A stretch of 64,000 nt of DNA from Iocasia fonsfrigidae (lineage in GTDB: Bacteria; Bacillota; Halanaerobiia; Halanaerobiales; DTU029): contig NZ_CP046640.1 of assembly GCF_017751145.1 (NCBI RefSeq), positions 1,902,137 through 1,966,136 on the forward strand. Direction: 5' to 3'. Each line of letters begins with the position of its first letter. Position 1 is the first letter of the stretch. The translations under genes were made by a program, and so were the position numbers. Shown one piece after another: positions 4,782 to 16,172 of this stretch. Below the pieces are notes generated by a model. The model had not been told where the DNA came from, made no database searches, and saw only the letters and a program-made list of their open reading frames with translations.

Positions 4782-4809
4782 AAGATCTATAAAAATAATT
4801 TAGTTTTAG

Positions 4810-4842
4810 ATGACTCCTGTATTTTACGGGAGTCATTTTTAA
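4810..4842 (+). terminator. Rho-independent terminator after the EF-G-like gene
   Basis: An 11-bp stem (ATGACTCCTGT with ACGGGAGTCAT, one G-T pair) closes a 5-nt ATTTT loop and is followed by a run of T. It lies 29 bp after the stop codon. Confidence 0.85.
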
Positions 4843-5193: not shown

Positions 5194-6351
5194 ATGATAG
5201 AAAAAAAATCTATTAAAAAAACATTGATATTACTTATATCACTAATCTTACTTATTACTTTAGCTGCCTGTAGTAATGATGAAACTACCTTAAATCAGAA
5301 TAAGGAGAAGAATGAACAGATAACTAAAGCCAGGCTGGCAAGGGAGGAAGCTGAGAAAGGGAATTCAAATAATGTAAACTACAAAATGAAATTAATTCAA
5401 CTACATGAAAAGTCAGAATTTGTCTTGACAAAAGAGATACATAGCAATGGAGATGGTAGTTTAAAGGGGACGGTTGAATATGACTATGATACTCATGGAA
5501 ACCTATTATCAATAACATACATTGATAAAGATAATACAATAATAGGTAATATTAAGTATAAGTATAATGACAGAGATTTAGTTATAGAAAGAGTGGTAAA
5601 TAAACAGCCAAATTACTTTGCTAACAGGTGGGTAGCAGGGTCTTGTGCCTGGGGTATGGTTAAAGAGGTGCAGGAATTTCCACGTTATTTTAATGGTATA
5701 GCAAAATATAGCTATAATGAAGATGACCAACTTATTGAGTATCTTGAAAAAGATAAAGAAACAGGAGAAAAATTGCGGACTGTTAGAAGAGAATATTATC
5801 CAAGTGGTAATCTGAAATATGATTATGAATGGAGGGAAACAGGATATGAATGTGAAATATTTTATGATGATGTATATATCAGGCATGCCTATGAGTGGGT
5901 AAAAAGAGTTGAGAGAGAAGAAGGAAAGAATACTATTACTATAAAACAGGATTATGATGAAAAGGGTAATATTATAAAGGGGATTACTATTATTACTGAT
6001 TCTGATGGTAATGTTGTAAGTGAGTCTGAAGACAATTATGAATATGATGAAAAAGGTAGGAATGTGAGGTTTAGTTGTGAGATTATAAGTATTGAATATG
6101 AATATGATGAAAAAGGAAATGAAATAAGGCAAGTAAAAAGAGATAGTGCGGGTAATGTTGACGATATATATGAATTAGAATATGATGATAAAGGTAATAT
6201 GATTAAGTCAATAACTAAAAATCCAGATGGTTCTATTTTTAGTTATAGTCAAAGTTATTATGATAAATATAATAATAGAATAAAAATTATCAGAAAAAAA
6301 GATGGAAATATAGAAAAAAAGTATGAATACGTATATAAAATAATTCCTTAG
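5194..6351 (+). CDS. YD-repeat-like lipoprotein
   Basis: This 385-aa protein has a lipoprotein signal: two lysine clusters, a hydrophobic stretch and the lipobox LAAC with C26. The mature part is built from roughly 20-residue units of the form Y-x-Y-D-x-x-G-N, for example YDTHGNL, YNEDDQL, YDEKGNI, YDEKGRN, YDEKGNE and YDDKGNM. These resemble the beta-hairpin YD repeats of RHS/teneurin shells. The array is too short to form a closed RHS cage, and no RHS core-associated motif or C-terminal toxin is seen. It would be anchored in a membrane facing the periplasm or outside. It is the first gene of a three-gene unit: the next gene begins 13 bp downstream behind a strong GGAGGAG site. The function is unknown; an adhesin-like or scaffold role for its partners is inference. 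Confidence 0.7.
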   Translation: MIEKKSIKKTLILLISLILLITLAACSNDETTLNQNKEKNEQITKARLAREEAEKGNSNNVNYKMKLIQLHEKSEFVLTKEIHSNGDGSLKGTVEYDYDTHGNLLSITYIDKDNTIIGNIKYKYNDRDLVIERVVNKQPNYFANRWVAGSCAWGMVKEVQEFPRYFNGIAKYSYNEDDQLIEYLEKDKETGEKLRTVRREYYPSGNLKYDYEWRETGYECEIFYDDVYIRHAYEWVKRVEREEGKNTITIKQDYDEKGNIIKGITIITDSDGNVVSESEDNYEYDEKGRNVRFSCEIISIEYEYDEKGNEIRQVKRDSAGNVDDIYELEYDDKGNMIKSITKNPDGSIFSYSQSYYDKYNNRIKIIRKKDGNIEKKYEYVYKIIP

Positions 6352-6364
6352 GAGGAGAGGCTAA

Positions 6365-9300
6365 ATGATTGATGATAATGTGATTTCTAATAAGAAAGTA
6401 GAGTATGAGCGTGACAGAAATGACCCTAATGATTCAGGTAAATTTTATTTAGAGGATGAGGAAAGTGGTGAAAAAATTGAACTGATTGATTTTGATTGGG
6501 TTGAAGGAATGGGTGTAAATAGAAATGAGAAGATCGCCGAAGCAACAGCCCAAAAATACACAACCCTTTTTCGCCTAACAGATGAACAGGTGAGGTTTGA
6601 TGCTGCGGCAGGTGCCCTGGAGATAGCAGGTAGAGGGATGACTTATGCTGAGGCTTATAGTAATACTGCTGGTGCGCTGGGAGAAAACATAGCCAATATC
6701 AGTGTAATGGCGCTAAGTTCTTATACCAGTTTATCTTTAGACTATATGTATCACGATTATTTTAATGATGAGAATGATGAAAGTGAGGAGCCTCATCCCA
6801 GTAATAAGGTTGATTTAAATGAAGAGAGGGTTCAAAAGGCTGCCGATAACCTATACCTCCAGACTTTATTATTAATAGGTGGGGAGTTTTTTAACCAGGC
6901 AGAACAGTATGCCCAGGAAGCCCTGGTAAAGAAGTATTCCAGTCCTGATACCATTGCTAATCTGATCAAGGAGAGGGGATCAGATGGTTTAAAAAGCGCT
7001 AAAGCAATTAAAACCCTTATGTCAGAATATTTTTGTAACTGGGGCCCGGCAATCATTAAACTGGCCCCTAAGGTAAAACACGGTGGTTTTGCAACAGCAG
7101 GTGAATATCTGGCAGCCCTTAATAGAGAGCTTATGTTAAATCGAATATCATGTAGGGTCAATATGATCCTTCTCTGTTTAGGGGTAACCCTGATGAAGAC
7201 AGAACATCCTCTGGCAGCACTCCTGGGTGCTGCTGTCCTGGTCTCTGCTCAACCGGTCTCTATGGGGGTAAGAAAGGCGGCAGAGCATAAACTAAAGGAG
7301 AAAGAGAATAATAGTGCTCAAATAGATGAAACTAAACAGACAGATATATGGGATGAAGTCCTGGATACCGTTTTTGAGGAATTCAAGAAGCAGTTTAATT
7401 TAGTAGAATTATTTAATGGGGTTAGTCAGATGTATCTCTTATGTGACCTTCATACAGATGACCCAAGGATAGCCGAATTTGAGATTGATGCCCCTGGTGG
7501 GATTGAAGGTTTTGAAATACTCTGGAGGGGCAATGTCAAAAGCCTTGCCAATTTAGATTTTAAGTGTTTAGCTAAACATGAAGGTATAGGGGATGTAAGT
7601 GAGTTTACCAATAAAATTAAAGGCCTATCAGCTTGTTATGGTACTGTGGAAAGTATTGGTGGAATGATGAACCGTAAATTTGAAAAAAAGGGAAACGAAG
7701 CGATTAACCAGCTGGACGAGGATTTTGTAGCCTTTTTTGACCATAGGGGGATAAAGAGCGCAGATGTAATGAGGAGGATAATTACTGATATTTTTCAAAA
7801 ATGGGAATGGGACCCCTATGAACACAGTTATAAAGAAGTAATAGTAAAAGAAGGAGATACCCTTGAAGATATAGCCCATGATCATTTTATAAGTTGTGAG
7901 GCCCTGAGAAAGGCAAATAATCTTCATGAGAATCAGAATATCAAAGAGAGGGCAACCTTAAAGATTCCCCCATTAACCAAGGTTCCATATGAAATAAAAC
8001 AAGGTGATAGTTTAAGTGAGATAGCTGTAGAATATGATACAGATGTAGCCACACTAAAACGCCTTAATAATCTAGAGGGGGGTACAATCTATACAGGAGA
8101 TATTCTCCTGGTTCCATTTGAAATTGATTGGGCCTATGAGGACCGCAGATGGACATCCTTTAAAAACCCTGAGTTTAATATAACCCCGAGATTAACACAT
8201 AAAAAGAAGACAAAGGATATAATGGACAAACATAATTTCTTATTCTTACCAGGATATACTGTCCCTGAAGTAAAAGACCATTTAAAAGTAATTAACAAAC
8301 ACTTTCCGGAGAGGTATCTAAAGTTCCTGTTGGAACAGGGGATTAATGTCGGTATTGATACCAGGGGTCGGGTGCCTTTTCATCAGGTGAGACATATCAG
8401 TATTATTGACAGGCAGGCCGATAAATTTGGTATAGGCTTACGTTATGCTGATAAAAGCTATAAAAAAATTTTGGAGTTAAGTCATAATGAGTTCTTTATA
8501 AAGGAAGAACTTAATGATAAATTATTTAGTAAAATAGATAAAAATTTTGAATATGACTACCTGATCTTTAAAGACCCTGATGTACTCTTACCCCATGTTT
8601 TTTTCAAAAAAAATCATGACAGGCTATATGGGAGTTTAGGAAAAAACAAAGAAGAATTAACTTCCCCAGAAGATCCCTATCAATTTACAGCAGGTTTTGG
8701 TGAAGAGAAAAACTATAAAAAATCCAATGGTATGGGGGTAATTAAGTTAAACGGTCATACTATTGGTGAAAATATTAGGTTTTTGAGAAAAACCAGGGGA
8801 CAGCTGAAAGAAGAATATGAAGAAAATATCTATAAAGAAGGAACAAAGAAACTAATGTTAAAAGTTAATTATACTTTTACCCCCCATGGTAAACTGGACT
8901 TCAACTCCTTATTTGACCTCTATGATAAAACAGAACTAATCATCAAATATGGTAGCCCTGGAGACGGGCCAGCTATAGCAAACATACTGGAGATAGATGA
9001 TTTTCAGAATGGGGATTATGGTATTAAATTACCCAGGTATCATCTAATCTCAGGTACATTATATGCTCGGCAATATAACCAATATATTAATAATGAAATG
9101 ATAAATTGTGTGGGTGATAATATAAAAATAAATTTAAGTTCTGGTAAGATCTATAATTATAAATTAAATAAGGAAGATGGAGAAAAGATCTATAATATGG
9201 CTAAGGGTATTATTATGGGAGACAGGCCTATTGGTCAGGATATTAAACTGATTAAAGAAACAGAGGAAGGAATTTTAGAGTATAGGGATGATGATCAAGT

Positions 9301-9988
9301 AGAATATCGATTTTCTATTAAGGAAAATACGCTATTAATTGAATTAAAGAACCACCATTCTATAAGAAAAGCCTGGGGAAATATGCAGTCAGTTAACTCT
9401 ATTTTAATAGAAAATTTTAAAAATGGGGATTATGGTTTGCGTTTGCCTTATGAGTACCTGGGAGATTATTGTGCACTGATGGTAGGTACCAGGGGAAGAG
9501 AAGAGATAGATGAAGGGCGAGATTACCATTTATATTCCCAGAAAAGCTACTGTGATATTAAGGATTATAAATTAAATGGACTTTACCCTGAGGGTATTAA
9601 TAATAATGGTGAAGACTGTTTTTCTAAACAATATATTTTTAATGAACTGAGATATAAACTTAGTAATGGAAAAGGTAACCTCTATATAGATGGTTTTAGG
9701 ATGGGTGATTTGGATATTGAGAAATTGGTCTATGAAGGAGAACTGAGTTTTCGTTACAGGTTTAAAAAGGGTTTATATACACTTGACTGTAGATTCAGGC
9801 AAAAACTTAATGAAAAAACATATCAGGTTGATGAACTGATAATTAACTATAGGGGAAGACTGAGGGATAATTATTTAGGTAAATGGAAACTGATCTTGAT
9901 AAAGAATTTTAAAAATGGTGATTACAATATTAAGTTACCCGGGGTAATTGTATCACATTTACCAGGTAGTAATTATATAGCATACTAG
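6365..9988 (+). CDS. Large LysM-domain protein with repeated FxNGDYG modules
   Basis: I do not recognise this 1207-aa protein as a whole. Residues 1-250 are mostly charged and helix-like. About 257-305 contains a hydrophobic stretch that could insert in a membrane. Two LysM domains follow at about 492-537 (KEGDTLEDIA) and 541-587 (KQGDSLSEIA). They are likely glycan-binding, or structural as in phage and injection baseplates. The C-terminal third has three copies of a beta-rich module ending in ILIENFKNGDYG-like motifs with F at residues 880, 1018 and 1182. A fourth copy lies in the next gene. There is no N-terminal signal peptide. The gene sits between a YD-repeat lipoprotein and a PAAR-like protein, 4 bp before the latter's annotated start. 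The context suggests a structural or carrier protein of a surface or injection apparatus. No enzymatic motif was seen. Confidence 0.72.
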   Translation: MIDDNVISNKKVEYERDRNDPNDSGKFYLEDEESGEKIELIDFDWVEGMGVNRNEKIAEATAQKYTTLFRLTDEQVRFDAAAGALEIAGRGMTYAEAYSNTAGALGENIANISVMALSSYTSLSLDYMYHDYFNDENDESEEPHPSNKVDLNEERVQKAADNLYLQTLLLIGGEFFNQAEQYAQEALVKKYSSPDTIANLIKERGSDGLKSAKAIKTLMSEYFCNWGPAIIKLAPKVKHGGFATAGEYLAALNRELMLNRISCRVNMILLCLGVTLMKTEHPLAALLGAAVLVSAQPVSMGVRKAAEHKLKEKENNSAQIDETKQTDIWDEVLDTVFEEFKKQFNLVELFNGVSQMYLLCDLHTDDPRIAEFEIDAPGGIEGFEILWRGNVKSLANLDFKCLAKHEGIGDVSEFTNKIKGLSACYGTVESIGGMMNRKFEKKGNEAINQLDEDFVAFFDHRGIKSADVMRRIITDIFQKWEWDPYEHSYKEVIVKEGDTLEDIAHDHFISCEALRKANNLHENQNIKERATLKIPPLTKVPYEIKQGDSLSEIAVEYDTDVATLKRLNNLEGGTIYTGDILLVPFEIDWAYEDRRWTSFKNPEFNITPRLTHKKKTKDIMDKHNFLFLPGYTVPEVKDHLKVINKHFPERYLKFLLEQGINVGIDTRGRVPFHQVRHISIIDRQADKFGIGLRYADKSYKKILELSHNEFFIKEELNDKLFSKIDKNFEYDYLIFKDPDVLLPHVFFKKNHDRLYGSLGKNKEELTSPEDPYQFTAGFGEEKNYKKSNGMGVIKLNGHTIGENIRFLRKTRGQLKEEYEENIYKEGTKKLMLKVNYTFTPHGKLDFNSLFDLYDKTELIIKYGSPGDGPAIANILEIDDFQNGDYGIKLPRYHLISGTLYARQYNQYINNEMINCVGDNIKINLSSGKIYNYKLNKEDGEKIYNMAKGIIMGDRPIGQDIKLIKETEEGILEYRDDDQVEYRFSIKENTLLIELKNHHSIRKAWGNMQSVNSILIENFKNGDYGLRLPYEYLGDYCALMVGTRGREEIDEGRDYHLYSQKSYCDIKDYKLNGLYPEGINNNGEDCFSKQYIFNELRYKLSNGKGNLYIDGFRMGDLDIEKLVYEGELSFRYRFKKGLYTLDCRFRQKLNEKTYQVDELIINYRGRLRDNYLGKWKLILIKNFKNGDYNIKLPGVIVSHLPGSNYIAY

Positions 9989-9992
9989 GGAG

Positions 9993-10955
9993 GTGATTGA
10001 GATTAATAAATATTTTGAATTTGATTTAGAAAATACTAGGGATTTTCTAAATGATGAGGAAAAAGAAAACAGAGAGGGAAAATTAAAGCTTGGTGATAAT
10101 TTTATTGGGAAGGAAATTAAAAGTAGTAATAAGGAATTATTTGATTGTGAGGATTGTTATGGTAACAAATATGTTTTAAAGGATAATAGTGATTTGCATA
10201 TCTATAGCAGTAGCAAATCAGGTTCTCAAATACATACATTGTTAATTCATAAGTTTGAGGATGGTGATTATGGCTTATGGTTGACTAAACAGGCCCCATA
10301 TTATTATGAAGATGGAAAGATAGTAAATTATTTTACTACTGAGGAAGCTACAGTGGGAGAGATAACTGCTATTAATAAAAATAAATATCTTCAGGAAGAG
10401 AATAGGATTATGGATGATTTTCTTTGGATTTATGCAGGTGATGATATAATATTTCCCAGTGAAGTTGAGGAACAACAGGTTAAACAGGGTGAAGGGAATA
10501 GTGATGGTGTTGGTAGTGAAGCTGGTATAGTAGCTGCTGGGGGAGCTGTCGATACAAAGAATGGAGAAGAAGGAGAAAATAAAAAGGGAAAGGATTCTAT
10601 TGTTGATATTGGAAAAGATGGTAAGTTATATGTTTGTCATGGTGCTATCTTAAAATGTAGTAAAGGAACTGTCCCGTGTACACTTAATGTAATCGATAAA
10701 CATCAAGTATATCTTAAGAGTAAACCTATAGCAACTGTTGATGATAGTAAACCTGTCAATATATCAAGTTTTGCTACCTGTAAAAGGCATGATTCTCCTC
10801 CATGTACACCAAAACTAAGTGGAAAATGGAAGGGTGGGAAAGAAAGTGTCTTAGTTCATGGTGTTCCTGTTTTACTGAAAACTTCAACTATTAAGTGTGC
10901 TTATGGGGGAACAATAACGATAATTAACCCTGGCCAGGGTCTTGTCAGTGAGTAA
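9993..10955 (+). CDS. DUF4280-type PAAR-like protein with N-terminal FxNGDYG module
   Basis: This 320-aa protein has two parts. Residues 1-120 are one more copy of the module in the preceding LysM protein (FEDGDYG at 88-94). Residues 155-205 are a Gly/Glu/Lys-rich linker. Residues 213-316 match the DUF4280 PAAR-like family: CHGAILKC, a TLNV block, VLVHGVPVL, KCAYGGTI and a closing INPGQ, with cysteines at 215, 222, 229, 263, 271 and 302. PAAR-like proteins cap the spike of type VI and related contractile injectors. No sheath, tube or VgrG gene is in the window. The start is odd: the only classical in-frame start, GTG 9993, overlaps its own GGGAGGTGAT ribosome site. An ATT at 10002 would be better spaced. 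A terminator follows. Confidence 0.8.
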   Translation: MIEINKYFEFDLENTRDFLNDEEKENREGKLKLGDNFIGKEIKSSNKELFDCEDCYGNKYVLKDNSDLHIYSSSKSGSQIHTLLIHKFEDGDYGLWLTKQAPYYYEDGKIVNYFTTEEATVGEITAINKNKYLQEENRIMDDFLWIYAGDDIIFPSEVEEQQVKQGEGNSDGVGSEAGIVAAGGAVDTKNGEEGENKKGKDSIVDIGKDGKLYVCHGAILKCSKGTVPCTLNVIDKHQVYLKSKPIATVDDSKPVNISSFATCKRHDSPPCTPKLSGKWKGGKESVLVHGVPVLLKTSTIKCAYGGTITIINPGQGLVSE

Positions 10956-12675: not shown

Positions 12676-13860
12676 TTGGAGAAATTTGCTGTGTTGGGAG
12701 CAGGAAACGGTGGTCAGGCTATGGCTGCATATCTTGCATTAAATGGGTGTAAGGTTAATCTTTATAATCGAAGTAGGGAAAGACTGGAACCAATTATTAA
12801 GAAGGGTGGTATATTTCTTAGTGGTATCTACCAGGGCTTTGGCAGATTAAATAAAATTACCGATAACATAGAAGAGGCCCTTAGTGGTACTGATATAATC
12901 ATGGTTGTTACACCTGCTGTTGCCCATAGATATCTGGCAGAAAAAATGAGTCCTTATCTTAGGGATGGACAGAAAATAATTCTTAATCCAGGTCGGACCG
13001 GTGGTACCTTAGAATTTTATAATATTTTAAAATCTAATAATTGTAATGCTGATCTTATTATATCTGAAACCCAGACATTTTTGTATGCCAGTCGTGTTGT
13101 AGGACCAGCCCGGGCAAAGATATTTGGTGTGAAAAACAGGGTTGCCATAGCAGCCTTTCCAAGTAATAGAACAAGGGAAATTATTGATAAACTTTATAAA
13201 ATTTTACCTCAATTTTCACCAGTAGAAAATGTGATGAAAACAAGTTTAGATAATATAGGGTCTATCTTTCACCCGGCCCCTACATTACTTAATATGGCCT
13301 GGATTGAATCTACTGATGGTAATTTCTCATATTATCAACAGGGTATTTCACCAGCTATAAGTAAGATAATGGAAAAAATGGATCAGGAGAGAATGAATGT
13401 GGCTGAGTCACTGGGTATAAGCCCTATTAGTGCCTTAGACTGGCTGCGAATGTCCTATGGGGCAAGGGGGAAGAGTTTGTATGAATTACTACAGAATAAT
13501 AAGCAGTATGAAGGGATAGGGGCTCCAGAGGAGATTAAACATAGATATATATTTGAGGATGTTCCTATGGGTCTTGTTCCAATTTCTTCACTGGCTAATT
13601 ATTTTGGTATAAGTACACCTACCATAGATATGATTATAGAGCTGGCAAATCTTGTTTATGATACTGATTTTAGGAAAATAGGCAGGACTGTTAAGTCTTT
13701 AGGTTTGCTTGGTTTGAATAAAAAAGAGATAATTGACCTGGTGAATAAAGGTAACATCAGTAATGTTGAGGTACATCCAAAACTGCGTAGGACTTTATAT
13801 AAGGGTCTAGATAATATAATTTACGGTCAATTTGCAGAATACCAGAAAGAGGTTGAATGA
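12676..13860 (+). CDS. NAD/NADP octopine/nopaline (opine) dehydrogenase family protein
   Basis: This 394-aa protein begins with a Rossmann dinucleotide motif GAGNGGQA (residues 8-15). It has a C-terminal helical domain of the octopine/nopaline dehydrogenase type, with the conserved SIFHPAP block placing the likely catalytic His at 199. Family members reductively join an amino acid and a 2-oxo acid, or run the reverse. The substrate here is unknown. The start is TTG 12676, 6 bp after AGGGGG. The stop codon lies just before the TTG start of a B12-binding protein, and a Crp/Fnr regulator follows, so the three form an operon. That pairing with a B12 protein is unusual for opine dehydrogenases and suggests a dedicated amino-acid pathway. 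Confidence 0.8.
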   Translation: MEKFAVLGAGNGGQAMAAYLALNGCKVNLYNRSRERLEPIIKKGGIFLSGIYQGFGRLNKITDNIEEALSGTDIIMVVTPAVAHRYLAEKMSPYLRDGQKIILNPGRTGGTLEFYNILKSNNCNADLIISETQTFLYASRVVGPARAKIFGVKNRVAIAAFPSNRTREIIDKLYKILPQFSPVENVMKTSLDNIGSIFHPAPTLLNMAWIESTDGNFSYYQQGISPAISKIMEKMDQERMNVAESLGISPISALDWLRMSYGARGKSLYELLQNNKQYEGIGAPEEIKHRYIFEDVPMGLVPISSLANYFGISTPTIDMIIELANLVYDTDFRKIGRTVKSLGLLGLNKKEIIDLVNKGNISNVEVHPKLRRTLYKGLDNIIYGQFAEYQKEVE

Positions 13861-13861
13861 A

Positions 13862-15514
13862 TTGAAAAAACTAATAATTGGTGCTTCTGTTGGTAATTGT
13901 GTTCATGTTGCTGGAGTTTTAAATTTTTTGCGACTTGCAGAAGAACACGGCTATCGAGCCAAATTTCTGGGGCCGGCTATTTCTATTAATTATTTGCTTA
14001 ATGCTGTCGAGGAAGCCTCACCAGATATGGTAGCTGTAGGTTACAGGTTGACCCCTGAAACAGCTTATAAAATATTAAAGAGATTAAAAGATTCTGTGGA
14101 AGAAAGGGGTCTAAGTTCTTACAAATTTGTTTTTGGAGGAACCCTACCAGTTGCTCGTAAGGCTCAAGAGGTAGGGTTTTTTGATGCAGTCTTTAGTGGT
14201 CAGGAAGAAATAGAAGAAATTATTGCCTATCTTGAAGGCAAGTCACTTAGTGATCGAGATATTTCTTATGGGAAAAACCTCCTGAATAGAATAGCTCTTA
14301 AAAAACCTTATCCTTTATTAAGACATCACTTTGGTTTGCCCTCTGTAGATGAAACGGTAGATGGTATTAAAGAAATAGCTAAGAGTAAGGTTCTGGACAT
14401 AATATCTCTAGGGCCTGATCAAAATGCCCAGCAGTCTTTTTTTAGGCCTACCGATATGGATGAAGATGAGAAAGGTGCTGGTGGGGTTCCGATCCGGACA
14501 AAAGAAGATTTAATAAGGCTCTATGATGCCAGTAGAACAGGGAATTATCCTTTGATGAGGTGTTATAGTGGGACAAGGGATGTCTTTCAAATGGCAGATC
14601 TTTTGCTCGATACGATAAATAACGCCTGGTGTGCTGTTCCCCTTTCATGGTATAATAAGCTTGATGGACGTGGTCCAAGGGGGTTACTAGCATCAATCAA
14701 GGAAAATCAGTTATTGATGAAATGGCATGGTGAGAGGAATATACCTGTTGAGGTTAATGAATCACATCACTGGAGTTTGCGTGATGCCCATGATACCATT
14801 GCTGTAGTAATGGCTTATTTAGCTGCTTATAATGCTAGAAAAATGGGAGTAAAAACATATATTGCTCAATATATGTTTAATACTCCTAATGGAACAAGTG
14901 CGGATATGGATATTGCGAAAATGATGGCTAAAAAAGAGTTAATTGAAAATCTTAAAGGAGAAAATTTTCAGGTTTTAACACAGGTTAGGGCTGGTTTAAG
15001 TAGTTTTCCAGCACAGCCTGATAGGGCTAAAGGTCAATTGGCTTATGCTACTTTTTTAGGGATGTCTTTAAGACCAGATATTGTCCATGTTGTTGCCTAC
15101 TCAGAAGCTGATCATGCTGCTTGGAGTAGTGATGTTATTGAAAGCTGCCAAATTGCCCGTCAGGTAATAAATAATTTAGTGTATAATTATCCTGATATAA
15201 GTCATGATCCAGGAATCATTAAACGAAAACAAAAATTATTATCTGAAAGTAGGGTGTTATTAAATCATATAAAAAATTTAGCTGATAATGGTGTTGCTGA
15301 TCCCTGGTCTGACCCTGTAACTCTTACCCGGGCAATTAAATCTGGCCTTATTGATGCACCACACTTAAAAGGTAATTCTGAAGGGGTTGGTTTACTTAAG
15401 ACTAAGATAGTAAATGGAGCCTGTTATGCCTATGATTACAAGAAAAATAAGATACTTAGTGAATTAGATAGAATCGAACAATTAAAGGGGGTTTCAAGCA
15501 ATGGATACTTATGA
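13862..15514 (+). CDS. Cobalamin-binding-domain protein with mutase-like C-terminal region
   Basis: This 550-aa protein starts at TTG 13862, preceded by GAGG at 13849-13852 and 1 bp after the stop of the opine dehydrogenase gene. Residues 1-100 resemble a B12-binding Rossmann domain: IIGASVGNCVHVAG, then FLGPAI and AVGYRLTPE. The usual DxHxxG motif is here C13-V-H15-V-A-G18, so the His ligand is kept and the Asp is replaced. Residues ~110-430 look like an alpha/beta barrel, with GRGPRGL, NESHHW and RDAHD blocks and DPWSDP near the C-terminus. Glutamate mutase or aminomutase-like proteins are the nearest idea. No precise family is claimed. It shares a transcription unit with a Crp/Fnr regulator, whose start overlaps it by 14 bp. 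Confidence 0.62.
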   Translation: MKKLIIGASVGNCVHVAGVLNFLRLAEEHGYRAKFLGPAISINYLLNAVEEASPDMVAVGYRLTPETAYKILKRLKDSVEERGLSSYKFVFGGTLPVARKAQEVGFFDAVFSGQEEIEEIIAYLEGKSLSDRDISYGKNLLNRIALKKPYPLLRHHFGLPSVDETVDGIKEIAKSKVLDIISLGPDQNAQQSFFRPTDMDEDEKGAGGVPIRTKEDLIRLYDASRTGNYPLMRCYSGTRDVFQMADLLLDTINNAWCAVPLSWYNKLDGRGPRGLLASIKENQLLMKWHGERNIPVEVNESHHWSLRDAHDTIAVVMAYLAAYNARKMGVKTYIAQYMFNTPNGTSADMDIAKMMAKKELIENLKGENFQVLTQVRAGLSSFPAQPDRAKGQLAYATFLGMSLRPDIVHVVAYSEADHAAWSSDVIESCQIARQVINNLVYNYPDISHDPGIIKRKQKLLSESRVLLNHIKNLADNGVADPWSDPVTLTRAIKSGLIDAPHLKGNSEGVGLLKTKIVNGACYAYDYKKNKILSELDRIEQLKGVSSNGYL

Positions 15515-16172
15515 GCCATTTTTAAGGAATTTTATCCTCTTTTCTGAGATGAGTGATAGTGATCTTATTGCAATCAGCGCTCTACTGGAGAGTAGTAGTT
15601 CCCACAATGGAGAAATAATCTTTATGCAGGGTGATATAGGGAATAATGTTTATTTCATAAAAAAGGGTAAGGTTAAGGCTGTAAGAAACAACGTAAATGG
15701 TGATGAACAGATACTCGAAATACTTCAGCCAGGTGATGTTTTTGGGGAAGTAGTTTTATTTGGTATAGATGAATACCCTGCTACTGCTATCGCCCTTGAT
15801 GAAGTGGAACTTGTCTTTTTATCAAAAACGAGATTTAAAGAATATTTTACTGCCAATCCACAGATAGCCTGGGGGATGTTAAGGGTCATGGCTAAAAAAT
15901 TGTACAGAGCGCAGAGAAAAATAGAGAACCTGGGATTAAAAGACACCCGGGCCAGGGTGGCTACCTTAATTATTGATATGTTGATTGACTTTGGGGAGAC
16001 AGAAAATGAATTAGTACTGGACATCAATAGGCAGGAAATGGCAAATTATATTGGGACCAGCAGAGAGACTGTTAGCAGGGTCTTAAGTGATTTTAAAAAT
16101 GAAGATATTATAGAGGTTAATGGCAATAGGATATTTATCAAAGATTTTAGTGCTTTAAAGGAATGGACATAA
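15501..16172 (+). CDS. Crp/Fnr family transcriptional regulator
   Basis: This 223-aa protein has an N-terminal cyclic-nucleotide-binding-type beta roll (about residues 10-125, with GDIGNNVYFI and GDVFGEVVLF). A long dimerisation helix follows, then a C-terminal winged HTH in which RQEMANYIGTSRETVSRVL is the recognition segment. There are no N-terminal cysteines for an Fe-S cluster, so it is not a classical Fnr. The effector is unknown. ATG 15501 is preceded by AAAGGGGG. The reading frame overlaps the upstream B12-protein gene by 14 bp, implying translational coupling and a role in controlling that operon. A site in the 12.6-kb promoter region was searched for but not convincingly found. Confidence 0.88.
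   Translation: MDTYEPFLRNFILFSEMSDSDLIAISALLESSSSHNGEIIFMQGDIGNNVYFIKKGKVKAVRNNVNGDEQILEILQPGDVFGEVVLFGIDEYPATAIALDEVELVFLSKTRFKEYFTANPQIAWGMLRVMAKKLYRAQRKIENLGLKDTRARVATLIIDMLIDFGETENELVLDINRQEMANYIGTSRETVSRVLSDFKNEDIIEVNGNRIFIKDFSALKEWT

Follow-up and report, generated by a model that had tools for sequence, protein, structure and literature searches.

What do a lipoprotein, a LysM protein and a PAAR-like protein do when they are encoded side by side with no injection machine around them? The question is raised by three genes of Iocasia fonsfrigidae that lie in a 64,000-nucleotide stretch of its single-contig genome (G000:C1:1902137-1966136, where G000 is the genome under study; hereafter the window). 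They are co-oriented, encode a YD-repeat lipoprotein of 385 aa, a LysM protein of 1207 aa and a DUF4280 protein of 320 aa, and probably form one operon, since their intergenic gaps measure 13 nt and 4 nt (Table 1). A reading of the DNA letters with no database searches (the sequence-only reading) had singled out this tightly spaced trio; its positions proved exact and the domains it named score over their cutoffs. It had also reported no sheath, tube, baseplate or VgrG gene nearby, and indeed VgrG/Phage_GPD, two sheath families and a 725-aa sheath candidate, each searched for across the genome, have no match in the window, nor does any tube candidate lie there. We consider it quite likely that the three genes constitute an orphan (satellite) effector-immunity-spike cassette of a contractile injector encoded elsewhere in the same genome, and highly probable that the cassette belongs with a machine locus at ~2.503-2.537 Mb. 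We assign the cassette to an injector because of four computed results: the PAAR-like fold of the tip, a paralogous set inside the machine locus, co-occurrence across genomes, and the sharing with VgrG proteins of a domain that we name NGDYG.

The DUF4280 domain occupies the C-terminal end of its protein and scores 101.3 bits against a curated cutoff of 26.3. Four conserved cysteines define PAAR-like DUF4280 proteins (metal-binding; PMC5014421), and their counterparts here, C222, C263, C271 and C302, are invariant or at least 90% kept across 23 aligned sequences. The predicted model has a pLDDT of ~87 over the DUF4280 domain and 66 over the whole protein. Foldseek returned two significant Protein Data Bank (PDB) matches, 9jg8 and 9jg9, both depicting the PAAR-like type VI secretion system (T6SS) effector BtpeA on a VgrG spike. 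When model residues 209-319 were compared using VIA-align, Z reached 14.5 to 9jg8_B and 9.9-6.7 to phage and T6SS PAAR-type tips; the top seven rows of the list are all PAAR-type spike tips and stand clear above the remaining rows. By domain score, cysteines and cone fold, the window protein is a member of the PAAR-like family. VgrG-like genes, whose products we propose as possible binding partners of this tip, are present in the same genome.

The rest of the genome, where the sequence-only reading had suggested a search for contractile injection genes, contains the machine locus, a minus-strand region of ~34 kb located ~0.6 Mb from the window (Table 1). It holds the second DUF4280 gene of the genome (at 2506479) within a set of paralogues of all three cassette genes. 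The 146-aa protein encoded there has TssD/Hcp as its sole Pfam match (5e-4) and matches Hcp1 in the PDB (E 0.0066). Among relatives of this tube-like protein TssD is the only recurrent Pfam family, being found in 11 of 12 and 14 of 21 members. Phage_GPD, representing the VgrG spike, was detected at four places in the genome, two of them over the cutoff, and vgr_GE matches were obtained at 1.5e-8 and 1.9e-9, both under the curated cutoff. The conserved protein p426 has no PDB match. Pfam recognized no TssJ, TssL, TssM or ClpV among the scanned locus genes, for which no genome-wide search was made. As side observations, the locus includes an Hsp70-like 879-aa protein (L021:464-3103) with a weak DnaK match, which is found beside the injector in nearly all loci and could act as a chaperone, an actin-like assembly factor or a recycling motor. 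In several relatives (loci L066, L069, L071 and L076) the machine locus adjoins trpB/trpA, which is not so in G000.

An alternative is that the cassette arose by duplication of part of the machine locus and is now a decaying relic with no present function. Such decay has occurred elsewhere in the genome. A third copy at 1.486 Mb retains its lipoprotein, but its LysM region is deleted and a DUF4280 gene is absent. In the LysM gene of the machine locus (L003:9432-13077), the LysM region is where the reading frame breaks into two that overlap. The two halves of the LysM protein are 91% and 74% identical in the decayed copy and 30% and 43% identical in the machine-locus copy. With one copy split and another decayed, no complete LysM/DUF4280 set remains in the genome except that of the window, where all three frames are open and intact and the DUF4280 cysteines and LysM repeats are kept. 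Intact detached cassettes also exist in the relatives G057 and G050, and we regard a functionless relic as very unlikely.

NGDYG is a ~90-aa domain ending in 'I.nF.NGDYGI.LP'; the window has three copies in the LysM protein and a single N-terminal one in the DUF4280 protein, and in the machine locus the domain also stands directly before VgrG in the 2146-aa cargo. The profile detects sequences outside its building set (e.g. G008, 8e-14). A whole-genome search placed 14 of 15 matches in the three LysM/DUF4280 sets, the VgrG cargo and two VgrG-fused proteins, the fifteenth being a 22-residue remnant near the decayed copy. The domain can serve as a marker for finding more cargo, having already revealed two extra detached VgrG-class cassettes at 0.60 and 0.98 Mb (G000:C1:593000-602300 and 972000-980900; L138 and L139). 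Across these two cassettes, 2.2 kb of the NGDYG-VgrG ends are 97.8% identical and the upstream cargo bodies differ, a pattern that suggests gene conversion of the delivery end.

Co-occurrence in relatives, a further check put forward by the sequence-only reading, was found for cassette and machine at the level of both class and phylum. Among the 59 genomes of the class sample the 725-aa protein is present in 7 and DUF4280 in 8, with all 7 shared (Fisher p 2e-8, uncorrected for shared ancestry). For the 398 genomes of the phylum sample the corresponding numbers are 13, 19 and 12 shared (Fisher p 2e-17, likewise uncorrected); put differently, DUF4280 is found in 12 of 13 genomes with the 725-aa protein versus 7 of 385 without it. 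This bears on the other possibility raised by the sequence-only reading, that the cassette serves the cell surface or adhesion as a system of its own, with no relation to injectors. The lipoprotein and the LysM domains do point to the cell envelope, yet the strong co-occurrence, the PAAR-like fold, the NGDYG domain held in common with VgrG proteins and the paralogous set in the machine locus all speak against such a system, which we consider extremely unlikely.

A collection of 84,980 species yielded 276 loci with relatives of the 725-aa protein, and the best 80 of these come mostly from Paenibacillus, Brevibacillus, Lysinibacillus, Clostridium, Aneurinibacillus and Halanaerobiia. Gene content was counted in the 63 loci with full flanks, of which 61 share the genes of the cluster. 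A tube-like gene lies directly 3' of the 725-aa gene in 62 of them; genes for the tube, DnaJ, FHA2, FHA1, PP2C, PP2C-TPR, p426, p229 and the Hsp70-like protein are each present in 61-63, and a kinase gene in 56. Downstream of the sheath candidate the order tube-DnaJ-FHA2-FHA1-PP2C-PP2C-TPR-p426-p229-Hsp70-like is kept in all eight long-enough cases among the nine gene orders listed, and in L145, L163 and L219 the PP2C-TPR gene is followed by a DUF4280 gene and a VgrG gene. This conserved neighborhood, with its tube adjacency, recurring gene set and DUF4280/VgrG genes nearby, is the strongest reason for calling the 725-aa protein a sheath, and on this basis it is likely to be the contractile sheath. 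Its NS1 matches (E 0.003-0.03 over ~40 residues) were taken as chance. A known phage or plasmid origin is also unsupported, as none of the plasmid and phage records searched encodes the protein. Two tube genes occur in L141, L142, L163 and L219, the last of which also has two sheath-like genes; these may be alternative tubes.

What the cassette would deliver is suggested by the architecture of the LysM protein. Its two LysM domains, at residues ~490-584, score 75.6 bits against a cutoff of 20.9, and the HMM and structure searches that the sequence-only reading had called for did not assign the protein to an unrelated family. A search of the 84,980 genomes with seed patterns found no relative of the full-length protein, which we attribute to the fast divergence of cargo, and the C-terminal half, searched across the order, was found in its own genome only. 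Cargo proteins of relatives share the C-terminal part and differ in their N-terminal bodies. For example, the cassette of relative G051 has a class 3 lipase as its body (Lipase_3, 22.8 bits against a cutoff of 22), and a homologue of that body is attached to VgrG in G000. In relatives G050, G056 and G005 a LysM-like cargo and DUF4280 are fused as a single protein. A shared C-terminal end with swapped bodies is the modular pattern of delivered effectors, and the 1207-aa cargo is in our estimate likely to be an effector. The hydrophobic stretch at residues 265-295, the LysM domains and the extracytoplasmic partner tip the balance slightly towards the envelope of another cell as its target. As an alternative, the LysM protein could serve structurally, in a baseplate or as a spike extension, as P2 gpX and the LysM protein of extracellular contractile injection systems (eCIS) do, with the lipoprotein as its anchor or adaptor. 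Baseplates of phages and eCIS have LysM domains among their core parts (PMC10673891), and an N-terminal region lacking a known toxin domain would fit such a part. However, genomes differ in the cargo body, which in one case is replaced by Lipase_3, and the lipoprotein arrays with cargo fragments described below would be unexpected for structural genes. Additionally, the gene order conserved at the core of the 63 loci showed no LysM counterpart, an indirect indication as the profile set left out cargo. A structural role is accordingly unlikely.

The case for an effector is complemented by the lipoprotein, which has the lipobox ITLAAC and RHS/YD repeats scoring 36.6 bits against a cutoff of 22. 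A lipoprotein gene lies directly upstream of cargo in the window, machine-locus and decayed copies and in relatives, and in part of the VgrG class a homologue anchored by a transmembrane segment takes its place before the cargo gene. Arrays consist of complete lipoprotein genes, each followed by a ~90-200-aa N-terminal cargo fragment, so that complete lipoprotein genes outnumber complete cargo genes 3:1 in the G000 VgrG class, 2:1 in G008 and several to one in G057. Between genomes the sheath candidate is 63-85% identical, as against 26-29% over part of the length for cargo and 23-39% for lipoproteins. Lipoprotein excess and fast divergence of cargo and lipoproteins both fit protective genes that outlive lost toxins, and we think it fairly likely that the lipoprotein is an immunity protein.

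Several points weigh against our interpretation, the evidence for which is computational throughout. The 725-aa sheath candidate has no Pfam, PDB-profile or fold match; its AF2 model, built from 16 alignment rows, has a pLDDT of 48 and gave no usable fold match. The TssD match of the tube family stays below the curated cutoff (3.2e-5 at best); member 1 scores 20.4 bits against 25.8. For residues 1-470 of the cargo no Pfam or PDB match was obtained, and no toxin domain is recognized there. Finally, comparison of the window with the decayed copy gives 64% amino-acid identity for the lipoprotein and about 90% for the N-terminal cargo, so the lipoprotein diverges more than its neighbor, which weakens the idea of tight toxin-antitoxin pairing. 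At the DNA level, window 6651-7850 is ~97% identical to 9200-10342 of the decayed locus L019 and the lipoprotein side is 56-87% identical; recombination, with mosaic exchange between loci, could explain such a tract beside a diverged lipoprotein.

Taking the cassette as an effector-immunity-spike module of the distant machine, we infer the following course of events. The DUF4280 protein would sit as a PAAR-like cone on the end of a VgrG-type spike. The 1207-aa cargo, built from a variable N-terminal body, two LysM domains and three C-terminal NGDYG domains, would dock on this tip protein, where the fourth NGDYG domain lies, and would be fired with the Hcp-like tube on contraction of the sheath. 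Anchored outside the cytoplasmic membrane, the lipoprotein would protect the producer and its kin from the presumed toxicity of the body. The kinase, phosphatases and FHA proteins of the machine locus would probably gate firing from the membrane.

There are several known systems with which this arrangement can be compared. Among DUF4280 PAAR-like proteins, Francisella IglG and BtpeA (PDB 9jg8/9jg9) resemble the window protein in fold, four cysteines and tip position on a VgrG spike (PMC5014421), whereas an N-terminal NGDYG domain, a separate LysM cargo partner and a Bacillota-type host distinguish the present case. The effector-immunity cassettes of T6SSs, among them orphan vgrG/PAAR islands and LysM-linked effectors, likewise combine a detached spike part, cargo and an adjacent protective gene, and a coupling of effectors to VgrG by LysM has been demonstrated in T6SS (PMC10673891). 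A protective-type gene beside each cargo and a conserved delivery part with a swapped body are both found here, with toxicity and neutralization as the presumed counterparts, and in its proposed working the cassette resembles an orphan T6SS effector cassette. The differences are that the proposed protection comes from YD-repeat lipoproteins, that the linker is NGDYG, and that VipB (TssC-type sheath) has no match in the genome, TssB not having been searched; identification of the machine as a T6SS is therefore not supported. The eCIS and the haloarchaeal contractile injection system (CIS) are contractile injectors that also use PAAR, VgrG and LysM parts, and the latter works like a T6SS and has its closest Cis11 relatives in Bacillota (PMC8213781, PMC11566945). 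Unlike these, the genome has no match to PF04984 (Phage_sheath_1), so an eCIS is not supported, and the accessory genes differ (FHA, PP2C, kinase, DnaJ/Hsp70-like). Polymorphic toxin systems (PMC3482391) share a conserved delivery end, swapped bodies and arrays of protective genes with toxin fragments; here their usual order is reversed, with the variable part N-terminal and the delivery end C-terminal.

A further precedent is a postulate. In 2016 Lays et al. brought up the possibility (PMC5349215), and Zhang et al. in 2021 postulated an 'unknown phage-like translocation system' of Gram-positives for PAAR_H2/DUF4280 (PMC8651086). The likeness lies in DUF4280 beside Phage_GPD-type VgrG in Bacillota without recognized T6SS or eCIS genes; the difference is that the missing machine is now proposed, with a 725-aa putative sheath, a TssD-like tube and further conserved genes. 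This gene cluster, of which our literature search (preprints and most subscription journals being outside its scope) found no description, is a candidate for the postulated system. It is moderately probable that Bacillota, including single-membrane Gram-positives (Paenibacillus, Brevibacillus, Lysinibacillus, Clostridium), carry an undescribed contractile-injector lineage with a single 725-aa sheath, an Hcp-like tube, a DUF4280 tip, a kinase/phosphatase/FHA membrane platform and DnaJ/Hsp70-like parts, armed by detached cassettes via a dedicated NGDYG docking domain. In leading to a concrete machine candidate, the cassette makes the postulated system testable by gene deletion and imaging.

Table 1. 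Features of the cassette (window positions) and genes of the machine locus in transcription order
Feature	Position	Strand	Basis or remarks
Terminator-like hairpin between EF-G-like gene upstream and cassette	4808..4838	+	14-pair stem, T-rich tail; consensus match only
YD/RHS-repeat lipoprotein, proposed immunity (protective) protein	5194..6351	+	385 aa; lipobox; RHS_repeat match; homologues immediately precede every cargo gene or fragment
Cargo (proposed effector) protein with LysM and NGDYG domains	6365..9988	+	1207 aa; LysM 2.9e-21
N-terminal, mostly helical region, residues 1-470, proposed toxic body	6365..7774	+	In three G000 copies and relative G057; absent or replaced in most other cassettes
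Hydrophobic stretch, residues 265-295, possible membrane hairpin	7157..7249	+	Hydropathy scan; same place hydrophobic in machine-locus copy and G057
LysM repeat 1, residues ~490-535	7832..7969	+	HMM matches
LysM repeat 2, residues 542-584	7988..8116	+	Pfam LysM
NGDYG copy 1, LysM protein residues 782-893	8708..9043	+	Profile search
NGDYG copy 2, LysM protein residues 938-1030	9176..9454	+	Profile search
NGDYG copy 3, LysM protein residues 1096-1193	9650..9943	+	Profile search
DUF4280 PAAR-like spike-tip protein	9993..10955	+	320 aa; DUF4280 5.7e-29
NGDYG copy 4, N-terminus of DUF4280 protein, residues 19-100	10047..10292	+	Profile search
DUF4280 (PAAR-like) domain, cysteines C222, C263, C271, C302	10632..10937	+	Alignment; model pLDDT ~87, Z 14.5 to 9jg8_B, 8.2 to PAAR 4jiw
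Machine locus, part 1: 725-aa protein; 146-aa TssD/Hcp-like; lipoprotein/cargo arrays; 2146-aa cargo ending in VgrG domain		-	
Machine locus, part 2: VgrG-like protein; conserved 426-aa (p426) and 229-aa (p229) proteins; Hsp70-like; 256-aa protein		-	vgr_GE 1.5e-8 (VgrG-like protein)
Machine locus, part 3: DnaJ; two FHA proteins; PP2C phosphatase; lipoprotein		-	
Machine locus, part 4: window paralogues (YD lipoprotein, LysM protein in two frames, DUF4280); PP2C-TPR; Ser/Thr kinase		-	

Around the cassette itself, the flanking repeats gave no obvious mobile-element ends, and antisense open reading frames were taken as shadows. Downstream of the cassette, at window 12676-16172, a 560-aa B12-binding-like protein without any NCBIfam match is encoded in an unnamed set together with a dehydrogenase-like protein and a Crp-type regulator.

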